A DNA stretch of 34,527 nt, from the NCBI GenBank assembly GCA_009377605.1, contig WHTT01000068.1, positions 1-34,527 on the forward strand. The letters are read 5' to 3'. The position numbers and the translations under genes were made by a program. Source of the stretch: Luteitalea sp. Its GTDB lineage: Bacteria; Acidobacteriota; Vicinamibacteria; Vicinamibacterales; Vicinamibacteraceae. Shown piece after piece: positions 21,052-34,527 of this stretch (position 1 is its first letter; the number at the start of each line of letters is the position of its first letter). The notes under the pieces are model-generated. The model was not told the origin of the DNA, did not search any database, and was given only the letters and a program-made list of their open reading frames with translations.

Positions 21052-21355
21052 GAGACCGTGCTCCTATGAGACCGCTATCCGAAGGCGCTGCGCGGTCGTT
21101 CTCCTTCCATCTCCTCCGCCGAAGCGCAAAGCGCGAAGGCGGACCGTACCAGGGGCCGCCGGGCGGTCATCCGACGTCAGTGGCACGATGCACTACCGCA
21201 CGCACCCGTACTCGTATTGAAGCACGGTATGTGCCAAAGCTCGCGGCACCTGAAGGCGCCCCTAGAGGGGCACTCTACTACCGTGAAAGGGGCACCTTAG
21301 TGCCGTGGGTATGGCAAGGTCGGCTGGGCGGGCCGCAGAGTGTCCTGTGCTCCGG
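21052..21355. other. Intergenic region with hairpins and REP-like repeat
   Basis: No gene is supported in these 304 bases. They hold a structured repeat at 21115-21143 (TCCGCC-gaa-GCGC-aaa-GCGC-gaa-GGCGGA), a CCCCT-AG-AGGGG palindrome near 21270, and a perfect GGCAC-CTTA-GTGCC hairpin near 21292-21305. The hairpins lie downstream of the inositol phosphatase gene (minus strand) and could end its transcript. The promoter of the outer-membrane protein is presumably also here. Confidence 0.6.
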
Positions 21356-25563: not shown

Positions 25564-25682
25564 GAGGGATCCAGGGACCGAGGGATCAAGGGATCAAGGG
25601 ATCAAGGGATCAAGGGATCAAGGGATCAAGGGATCGAGGGATCAAGGGATCGAGGGATCAAGGGATCAAGGGATCGAGGGAC
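25564..25682. repeat. 8-bp tandem repeat array (GGGATCAA)n
   Basis: Twelve consecutive 8-base units, GGGATCAA or GGGATCGA, run from 25582 to 25677, with degenerate units on both sides. The array reaches into the 3' end of the hydrolase pseudogene on the minus strand, where it encodes an 8-residue periodic tail (SLDPLIPR) and supplies the stop codon at 25626. There are no unique spacers. Confidence 0.92.
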
Positions 25683-32085: not shown

Positions 32086-32466
<381 letters not shown>

Positions 32467-32473
32467 CCACTCC

Positions 32474-33133
32474 TCACGCTTCCGAGGTGCGCATCACATC
32501 GTCCAAGAGCGCCTCCTGCTCGGCGATGCGTACTCGCGTCGCCAGTAGGGCAACGAACAGAAGTAGGAACGCACCGGCGCACCACCAGAGCGGCCCCATC
32601 ATCGCCGGCACCAGCGACGGCACCACGGTTGTCTTCGGATGCAGCGTGCGCCAGAGGTTCGCCGACAAGTACACGAACGGGACGTTGACCATCCCGAACA
32701 GCGCCACGGCGGCGCCCAATCGCTCCGATCCGGGTCCACCAAACCGGCGCAGCAGCCCGTAGGCGGCAAAGATCATCCAGAGCACGAGCGCCGAGGTGAG
32801 CTTCGCATCCCACACCCACCACACGCCCCACACCTTGCGCGCCCACATCGGACCGGTCAGGAGTCCGATGGCGCCAAAGAGCAGGACGAGCTCCGCCGCG
32901 GCGTTCGCCACATGGTCGGCAGATGGCCGCCGCGTCCAGAGGAAACGGACGCTCGCGATGCCGCACACGAACGTCGCCAGAAACATCACGATCCAGGACG
33001 GCACGTGGAAGTAGAAGATCTTCTGAACCAGCCCCATGGTGGACTCATAGGGCGCGGCGGCAATGAAGAACGGCGCGAGCATGAACATCACCAGCGCAAG
33101 CACGAGCGCCCGTACCGCGATCCGATTCAACAC
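32474..33133 (-). CDS. ccmC: Heme handling protein CcmC
   Basis: The 219-residue integral membrane protein has six hydrophobic segments and the heme-binding WWD motif (VWGVWWVWDAKLTS, about residues 101-114). Flanking histidines at FYFHVPSW (H43) and NLWRTLHPKT act as axial ligands in this family. CcmC passes heme to CcmE in the periplasm for cytochrome c assembly. The GTG at 33133 is preferred because GGAGGGG lies 6 bases upstream; an in-frame TTG at 33148 would place the ribosome-binding site inside the gene. It lies downstream of ccmAB and upstream of the ccmD-like gene. Confidence 0.9.
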   Translation of the reverse strand: MLNRIAVRALVLALVMFMLAPFFIAAAPYESTMGLVQKIFYFHVPSWIVMFLATFVCGIASVRFLWTRRPSADHVANAAAELVLLFGAIGLLTGPMWARKVWGVWWVWDAKLTSALVLWMIFAAYGLLRRFGGPGSERLGAAVALFGMVNVPFVYLSANLWRTLHPKTTVVPSLVPAMMGPLWWCAGAFLLLFVALLATRVRIAEQEALLDDVMRTSEA

Positions 33134-33196
33134 CGCAATCCCCTCCAAGATGTCCCGTTCACCTGTCCCCCACTCACCTGGTCACCCGCTCACGCC

Positions 33197-34527
33197 CTAC
33201 TCCGTCATGACGGCGTCGAACGTCCAGAGGGCGAGCGTGACGAATACCGTGTCGAAGAATATCAGCATGGCGAGCCAGGTCACAGCCATCGCGTCGCCGC
33301 GTGTTGGATCGACCACCGACAACGTCCCGCGCACACCGGCAATCAGCACCGGCACCGTCATGGGATAGAGCAGGATTGGCAAGAGCACTTCGCGACTTCT
33401 GGCCCGCGCGAGCATGGCGGCAAAGAGCGCGCCCACGGCCGCAAACCCAAGCGTGCCAGCCGCCAAGAGCGCGGCGAGCAGCCATGGCCGTGGCACAGCG
33501 CGCACCTGGAAGAACAGCCCAACCAGCAAGACGACCACGAGCTCCACGGCAGCCATGAGGACGAGAACGCCGCCGAGCTTCCCGAGATAAATCGCGGCAC
33601 GCGAGACCGGCGCTAGTAGCAGCCCCTGGAGCGTGGCGTTTGCCCGCTCCCGCTCGAACAGGCGGCCGAGCGCTAGTGTGCCGGAGAACGCGAGCGCTAT
33701 CCAGAGAATGCCGCCGATCGCTCCTTGCAGAGGACGCCCCTCGTCTACGAAACCAAACGAAAAGACGAGGACGCACGCGACGGCAAAGAACACAGTGGTC
33801 GCCAAGATCTCACGGCTGCGCGTCTCGATGACCAGGTCCTTCCGTAGCACTTGCCAGACCACTCGGAAGAACGCCGCAGCCGATCCGGTCGCGCGAGGCG
33901 CAGAGACGCTCGGTGCAGGAGTGCTGCTCGTCCGCCGGCTCGCGGCTTGTCCGCCGTAGCGGCGATCCGCCGTCGGCTCCGGGCCGCGAAGGCGGAAGCC
34001 CGAGGGCGGAGGTGCAGCGGGGCTGGGCTCACCGTGGACGACCTGTGCATAGTGCACACGCAATGCGGTGCCCGGAGCCTCGACGACCGTAGCGCGCCCC
34101 GCGCGAAGAATCACGGCGCGATCGAGCATGCCATCGACGAGCTCGAGGTCGTGCGTCGCCACGATCACGCCAACACCAGCGGCGCGTAGGTCTCGTATTC
34201 GCTCCACGAGCCGCGCCGTCGACGAGTCGTCGAGGCCCGTGAACGGTTCGTCCAGCAGGAGAAAACGGGGCTCGTGAACAACGGCGCGCTCGAACGCGAG
34301 ACGCTGACGCATTCCCCGGGAAAAGCCGCTCACGGGATCGTCGGCACGCTCGTCGAGCCGCGCCGACGCAAGTCCGGCCTCGGCGCGCGCTTCGACATCA
34401 CTGGCGCCGTACAGTTGGGCGAAGAAACGGAGGTTCTCGCGTGCGGTCAGCTCCGGATAGAGACACAGCTCATGGCCGAGCACGCCAAGATCGCCACGAA
34501 CGCTGGCCGTGGCGTCAGGGCCTTCCG
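33197..34527 (-). CDS. ccmAB: Fused CcmA-CcmB heme exporter (ATPase-permease), 5' end outside window
   Basis: One uninterrupted frame, open to the window edge, contains both ABC subunits. The ATPase part has the Q-loop region GHELCLYPELTARENLRFFA, the signature SGFSRGMRQR, Walker B RFLLLDEPF and the H-loop VIVATHDL; Walker A would lie upstream of 34527. A Pro/Ser/Arg-rich linker (about 34040-33890) follows. The CcmB permease then begins FFRVVWQVLRKDLVIETRSR, with six membrane helices and GRLFERERANATLQGLLLAP. In most bacteria CcmA and CcmB are separate. The complex works with CcmC in heme delivery to CcmE. Part of the linker is encoded by a REP-like repeat at 33950-33996. Confidence 0.85.
   Translation of the reverse strand, partial: EGPDATASVRGDLGVLGHELCLYPELTARENLRFFAQLYGASDVEARAEAGLASARLDERADDPVSGFSRGMRQRLAFERAVVHEPRFLLLDEPFTGLDDSSTARLVERIRDLRAAGVGVIVATHDLELVDGMLDRAVILRAGRATVVEAPGTALRVHYAQVVHGEPSPAAPPPSGFRLRGPEPTADRRYGGQAASRRTSSTPAPSVSAPRATGSAAAFFRVVWQVLRKDLVIETRSREILATTVFFAVACVLVFSFGFVDEGRPLQGAIGGILWIALAFSGTLALGRLFERERANATLQGLLLAPVSRAAIYLGKLGGVLVLMAAVELVVVLLVGLFFQVRAVPRPWLLAALLAAGTLGFAAVGALFAAMLARARSREVLLPILLYPMTVPVLIAGVRGTLSVVDPTRGDAMAVTWLAMLIFFDTVFVTLALWTFDAVMTE
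33950..33996. repeat. REP-like repeat inside the ccmA-ccmB linker
   Basis: TCCGCC-gta-GCGGC ... GCCGC-gaa-GGCGGA forms a nested inverted repeat with the same layout as the intergenic element at 21115-21143 (TCCGCC-gaa-GCGC ... GCGC-gaa-GGCGGA). Here it lies in frame within the coding sequence and encodes part of the linker between the two ABC subunits. Confidence 0.6.

Follow-up and report, generated by a model that had tools for sequence, protein, structure and literature searches.

The window, by which we mean the whole stretch of DNA analysed here (34,527 b), is an entire contig that ends at position 34527. At this end lies a single stop-free frame of 442 aa, read from 34525 to 33197 on the minus strand, which joins the ATPase (CcmA) and the permease (CcmB) of a heme exporter. 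The features discussed below, including two copies of a palindromic repeat termed E1, are the following.

33197..34525, minus strand: fused ccmA-ccmB reading frame, 442 aa and a stop codon, truncated on its 5' side where the contig ends
34028..34525, minus strand: CcmA portion (ABC ATPase), residues 1-166, boundary drawn by eye
33872..34027, minus strand: linker, residues 167-218, about 52 aa, boundaries set by eye
33197..33871, minus strand: CcmB (permease) part, residues 219-442 plus stop, boundary set by eye
33950..33996, unstranded: E1 in the linker, arms TCCGCCGTAGC / GCGAAGGCGGA, 25-nt interior
32474..33148, minus strand: CcmC-like gene beside ccmAB, PF01578; TIGR01191 at 107 bits, below the cut-off of 186
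32086..32466, minus strand: CcmD-like small gene, TIGR04391 (CcmD_alt_fam) at 33.1 bits, cut-off 24
21115..21143, unstranded: intergenic E1 copy, TCCGCCGAAGC..7 nt..GCGAAGGCGGA, in a gap between called genes

A first-pass annotation of this DNA had described the ATPase and the permease as joined, and the reading frame at 33197-34525 confirms this with a Pfam match on either side of the linker. ABC_tran matches residues 6-95 (48.8 bits) and CcmB (PF03379) residues 224-437 (103.1 bits, cut-off 24.9). The ABC_tran match covers positions 54-136 of the 137 in the profile and starts only at 54, hence the N-terminal part of CcmA is missing in the window; about 80 first residues including Walker A are lost because the contig ends at 34527. 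The full-length CcmAB of the congener has 519 aa. The CcmA part was taken to end with the tail that corresponds, in the alignment, to the C-terminus of CcmA proteins that are not fused. The ccmA model TIGR01189 (NCBIfam) reached 70.2 bits against a cut-off of 131.6, scored on the truncated and divergent copy of the window. Even though the NCBIfam models for ccmA and ccmC remain under their cut-offs, the exporter most likely belongs to System I, because CcmE was found above cut-off in all seven genomes of the family (84.5 bits in the genome of the window, on a separate contig). The same Pfam families as in CcmA and CcmB of System I and the CcmC-like and CcmD-like neighbours complete this likeness; elsewhere in the order, CcmA and CcmB of System I are two separate proteins, whereas in the family of the window they form one frame. 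A scan of a collection of genome contigs returned eight loci, with the congener as the only full relative, and an Rfam scan gave nothing beyond one tRNA at the gathering threshold. All matches listed from a PDB search (60 of 355) cover the ATPase part, and an AlphaFold model from a two-sequence alignment reached a pLDDT of 38.5 and a pTM of 0.27 and was set aside. The CcmD-like reading frame contains a hexamer tandem repeat (32407-32437) that encodes CLCLCLCL in its N-terminal segment and constitutes a further coding repeat adjoining ccmAB.

We compared the ccmA/ccmB junction across 60 genomes, 57 loci of which were analysed by script. In the following, G000 denotes the genome of the window and G001 its congener (genus g1), while the sister genus g2 comprises G002, G003, G004, G005 and G006, which gives a family set of seven genomes in all. 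Only weaker ATPase-type matches were present among those listed for G006, G012 and G032, which lie outside the junction analysis. The fusion was found in 5 of the 57 analysed loci, namely in G000 and G001 and in G002, G003 and G005. The contig of G004 ends inside the linker and was not counted as fused, and three other junctions (G018, G027, G049) are incomplete. In relatives from other families, ccmA and ccmB are separate in 48 of 48 assessable cases. All five assessable family members thus carry the fusion, in both genera, and no unfused member appeared among the seven family genomes (G004 is broken and G006 lacks a ccmAB match). An order-wide survey based on the best match per genome (162 genomes, 136 matched at E <= 1e-60) recovered the same five as full-length matches in one frame and no fusion among the 130 matches from outside the family. 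In a sample of the phylum (247 genomes, 142 matched at 1e-35), the matches listed include only G000 and G002 as fused, and these are the family members within that sample. The best explanation of this distribution is that the CcmA-CcmB fusion is typical of the window's family of soil bacteria. An assembly artefact was considered and is disfavoured, as several independent assemblies, two of which consist of a single contig, contain the fusion.

Among 47 separate pairs (G010, with an early break in its ccmA frame, was excluded), the two genes overlap by 4 nt in 27 and by 1 nt in 3, while 17 are otherwise arranged. Both genes share the same frame in 7 of the 47. Two genomes of the phylum sample are a single codon short of fusion, G024 by one TAG and G337 by one TGA. 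In G024 (L029, G024:C35:199934-201376), ccmA and ccmB lie in the same frame with the single TAG between them, and CcmA has an Ala-rich tail; this arrangement possibly gives a picture of the state just before fusion.

In the alignment, CcmA of unfused relatives typically ends with '..LRERYRAAV..*' and CcmB starts with 'M..FFRVAWLVMRKD'. The counterparts in the window, 'ALRVHYAQVV' and 'FFRVVWQVLRKD', are separated by about 52 residues that have no counterpart in most unfused relatives; longer CcmA tails also occur in a few of them (G024, G034, G058). The linkers of G000 and G001 are homologous, with FRLR..GGQAA in common, and both contain E1. In the congener, the E1 copy is compact (29 nt) and occupies the position aligned with the copy in the window. 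The g2 linkers have nothing evident in common with these two and do not match the E1 pattern, whereas they share a short segment at the CcmB end, SLSDI in G002 and G005, SLADI in G003 and SLTDI in G004. Since this segment is common to them, the g2 linkers probably descend from a single fused ancestor older than the individual repeats. A second hairpin repeat, E2, is present in two of the four g2 linkers seen (G002 and G004). In G002, part of the linker additionally resembles one arm of E1 without fitting the E1 pattern, and the linker of G005 contains no recognisable repeat. The G003 linker was dropped as a repeat-derived candidate, as the evidence is weak: its candidate sequence AACGCGGAACGCGG occurs once in a 200-kb sample, in the ccmAB gene itself. 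The G002 sample contains a related motif, AACGCC, as a repeat located mostly between genes, and an AACGCC-like stretch is also found in the broken G004 linker. For G002 and G003, k-mer counts alone are too blunt. An AGCACC array of G001 has one other site in the sample of that genome. The assembly break of G004 inside the CcmAB linker (L035/L036, end of C138 and start of C139) adjoins an E2 copy.

The palindrome in the window's linker had been likened to the intergenic repeat at 21115-21143 and taken for a mobile or dispersed element. The likeness holds for the arms and fails for the interior, which is expanded in the linker copy and contains a further TCCGCC (33966-33971); one more TCCGCC lies at 33931-33936. 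Counting with the pattern TCCGCCKNMGC..GCKNMGGCGGA and its reversal as a control identified 30 copies of E1 in G000 and 84 in G001, with no control match in either, which establishes E1 as a dispersed repeat. In g2, 51 copies were detected in G002 and 15, 11, 3 and 0 in the other four genomes. Altogether, E1 is present in 39 of the 60 genomes of the order, with 0 or 1 control matches per genome. Both arms of the linker copy fit the family pattern, and in the congener a copy stands at the corresponding position. Part of the linker is repeat-derived, as the first-pass annotation had supposed. A GTAG was found up to 25 nt before E1 in 5 of 25 copies in G000 and 3 of 10 in G001 (GTAG background 5% and 4%, respectively), and a CTAC up to 25 nt after it in 5 of 25 and 5 of 10. 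None of the loci (about 3 kb) around the three Y1_Tnp matches in G000 and G001 contains E1.

E2 was searched with the pattern GTAGGGNCSGCTCTCCG, the reversal of which gave no match in 59 of the 60 genomes and one in G001. Among these genomes, the element is confined to the five of g2 (284 copies in G002, 123 in G004, and 46, 9 and 1 in the others), with no copy in G000 or G001. The full copy, GTAG-GGACCGCTC-TCC-GAGCGGTCC, consists of GTAG followed by a 9-bp stem with a 3-nt loop; this form was read by eye from 40 of 62 G002 matches printed with their flanks and from the consensus of all 62. In some copies, including the one in the linker, the second arm is degraded.

To place the linker copies among other repeats inside genes, we used an in-house dicodon gene caller, the coding fraction of which (0.77-0.88) implies that some genes were missed. 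The sample of G000 comprised 16 stretches chosen for holding E1 and that of G002 20 stretches chosen partly for E2, neither of them for gene position. Most sampled copies lie between genes. In the samples, E1 matches overlap called genes in 7 of 26 cases for G000 (where the pattern matched some loci twice and one of the overlaps is partial), in 1 of 10 for G001 and in none for G003 (1 match) and G002 (4 matches); for E2 in the G002 sample the figure is 18 of 62, four of them partial and two no more than 16 nt from a gene start. Matches inside genes are 17-50 nt long, and their reading in several frames gives several peptides. We then asked where 15 interior copies, one per gene and with the g1 CcmAB counted once, lie relative to Pfam stretches (E <= 0.001). 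Partial overlaps, the two gene-start cases and L107 15164-18034, which has multiple Pfam stretches, were left out. Outside such stretches lie 14 of the 15 copies, against 5.8 expected from protein lengths (P = 3e-6), and 12 of 13 against 5.2 expected (P = 3e-5) without the two CcmAB cases; the test rests on the best stretches only, some of them below the curated cut-off. The sole exception is a gamma-glutamyltranspeptidase (L181 15961-17811). In G000, E1 lies between the homocysteine S-methyltransferase and MTHFR domains of one protein (L160:2143-4080, G000:C7), in a linker region that is 16-20 aa longer than in 7 of 8 aligned relatives. In G001 the same region is 7 residues longer than in G000 and of other sequence, which was not recognised as a repeat within the G001 sample. 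Another repeat copy of G000 is located between a ketoacyl-synthase and an acyltransferase, and E2 in G002 lies between B12-binding and radical SAM domains as well as between a sigma-54 AAA lid and an HTH domain (L188:5897-7471, L188:8861-10279).

All six frames are open in the main form of E1, five in the linker copy of the window, four in another E1 variant and five in E2. The G000 genome also contains octamer arrays (TCACCnnG, GGGATCAA), for example at 25565-25681 of the window, which are dispersed over many loci. None of the 40 sites in the G000 sample lies wholly inside a called gene, which counters the notion that all repeats enter genes equally. On one strand, the arrays have no open frame among the three. 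This fits the idea that openness matters, although array length alone may be reason enough.

The first-pass annotation had further suggested that E1 removed the stop codon of ccmA and thereby created the fusion. The comparison of junctions across relatives, set beforehand as a test, speaks against this: g2 members have the same fusion with unrelated linkers, and G005 shows that the fusion can do without a recognisable repeat. We therefore rejected E1 as the maker of the fusion across the whole family, given that the g2 linkers lack it and two of them carry E2, which is absent from g1. Instead, we consider it probable that the fusion came first, family-wide, and that the linker later tolerated different repeats, provided that these preserved the frame. 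The sequences are most simply read as a single fusion with subsequent turnover of the linker. The ccmA stop would have been lost before the two genera split, leaving a new linker under little constraint. Short GC-rich palindromic repeats, open in most frames, could then have settled there neutrally while the frame was kept, in a lineage-specific manner: E1 in g1 and E2 in two of the four g2 linkers. This would amount to at least two independent landings rather than four, as E1 is shared by descent between G000 and G001 and E2 may be so between G002 and G004.

The order of events could also be reversed, with a repeat inserted at the ccmA/ccmB border having made the fusion independently in each genus, which we regard as unlikely. 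A tree of CcmA plus CcmB (50 of 53 rows; L044 was dropped for internal stops, L052 and L059 as incomplete rows) places the fused genera apart and needs two changes, with a single fused clade in 36% of the bootstraps; enforcing that clade costs 3.6 log units (AU p = 0.338), so that a single origin is not rejected. Another tree with 52 rows agrees (single clade 44%). In it, the inner branches of the two fused lineages are the longest of all (1.06 and 0.53), which makes their placement uncertain and suggests faster evolution after fusion, or two histories. The linkers of the two genera share no evident sequence, and those of G000, G001, G002 and G004 carry repeats. A small event would moreover suffice to join the genes, considering the 7 of 47 unfused pairs that share a frame and G024, which is one TAG short. 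However, G005 is fused without a recognisable repeat (and the G003 case is weak), and the SLSDI-like segment points to a fused g2 ancestor older than the repeats. Two fusions within one family are also less likely given that none was seen among the 130 order-wide matches outside it. A broader form of the insertion idea takes the junction for a recurrent target, at which REP-like insertions fused the genes more than once in the family and lineage-specific, repeat-encoded linker peptides set the length and flexibility between ATPase and permease. This is quite improbable in our view; if true, repeats open in most frames would generally supply new linkers between domains in these genomes.

Alternatively, the palindrome could be a GC-rich inverted repeat that arose by chance as the linker evolved rapidly, unrelated to the E1 family. 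This would account for the unusual 25-nt interior, and short palindromes of this kind are common, as the looser six-base pattern discriminates poorly (69 matches against 49 in the control). Against the fit of both 11-nt arms to a pattern without control matches in G000, the compact family copy at the aligned place in the congener and an expectation by uniform chance of 0.0009 E1 copies in a 195-nt linker, such a coincidence is barely credible. We infer that the fused frame yields one protein; a frame that is fused while its product is not one working polypeptide, be it through an internal start, proteolysis of the linker or an annotation artefact, appears very unlikely. GC-rich DNA readily yields long open frames, and in-frame start codons occur in the linker or early CcmB of three fused genomes: ATG and GTG in the linker of G003, TTG codons in that of G005 and, in G000, a GTG located 18 nt inside the CcmB match. 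On the other hand, both domains stand in one stop-free frame in five divergent genomes, and in G001 no ATG, GTG or TTG is present from a GTG 153 nt before to a TTG 45 nt after the start of the CcmB match, which leaves its CcmB without a usual start of its own.

The fused gene is predicted to encode a half-transporter, a single chain of ATPase, linker and permease, two copies of which would presumably pair to form the usual exporter of two ATPases and two permeases. This would represent a covalent half-transporter form of the cytochrome maturation machine with a fixed subunit ratio. ABCG half-transporters likewise combine in one chain an ATPase and, following it, an ABC-2 type membrane domain; they resemble CcmAB in domain order only, being eukaryotic and having other substrates. 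We found no report of a CcmA-CcmB fusion in the literature searched, which covered few subscription journals. The accessible parts of a System I review state that no variants of CcmA and CcmB are known and mention a fusion of CcmH and CcmI in E. coli (PMC3601427), and those of PMC9084895, PMC3601427 and PMC9012536 describe no fusion of CcmA with CcmB. Palindromic repeats within genes, in contrast, are already known from other phyla. According to the accessible part of PMC10969869, Rickettsia palindromic elements are translated in frame in unrelated proteins. E1 and E2 resemble them in being palindromic and read in frame inside unrelated proteins, whereas the Rickettsia elements measure about 150 bp and encode a conserved peptide, which sets them apart from the short and variously read E1 and E2. 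The accessible part of PMC3733652 reports REPs inside genes and proposes flexible linkers as one reason for their tolerance. The CcmAB linker constitutes a natural experiment in this respect, as one site has received different dispersed repeats in relatives of known kinship. With it one can ask by which route such repeats turn into protein sequence and whether being open in most frames determines which of them may enter genes.

E2 has GTAG at one end of a short hairpin, which is the criterion of GTAG-tagged REPs, and its stem and loop are within the ranges given for these in the accessible part of PMC3733652. The same text lists GTAG repeats for Proteobacteria, Cyanobacteria, Chloroflexi and PVC, and for Acidobacteria related transposases with other flanking repeats. 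In hairpin form, E2 is like the GTAG-tagged REPs; E1 has no adjoining Y1_Tnp gene in the loci covered. A tie between E2 and RAYT genes has observations on both sides. Of the PF01797 matches in g2, one of two in G004 has two E2 copies nearby, and in G002 one match (L223) is accompanied by a single E2 copy. Speaking against a firm tie, two matches in G002, perhaps pieces of one broken gene, and both in G003 have no E2 copy, and G005 and G006 contain E2 copies without a PF01797 match. At the remaining G002 match (L215, G002:C1 around 4000455), a Y1_Tnp (RAYT-like) gene stands beside 13 E2-like copies, mostly 54-56 nt apart. The locus holds 15 E2-like copies in 3.2 kb, compared to 0.14 per kb in the G002 sample, and may represent a GTAG-REP/RAYT unit in an acidobacterium.
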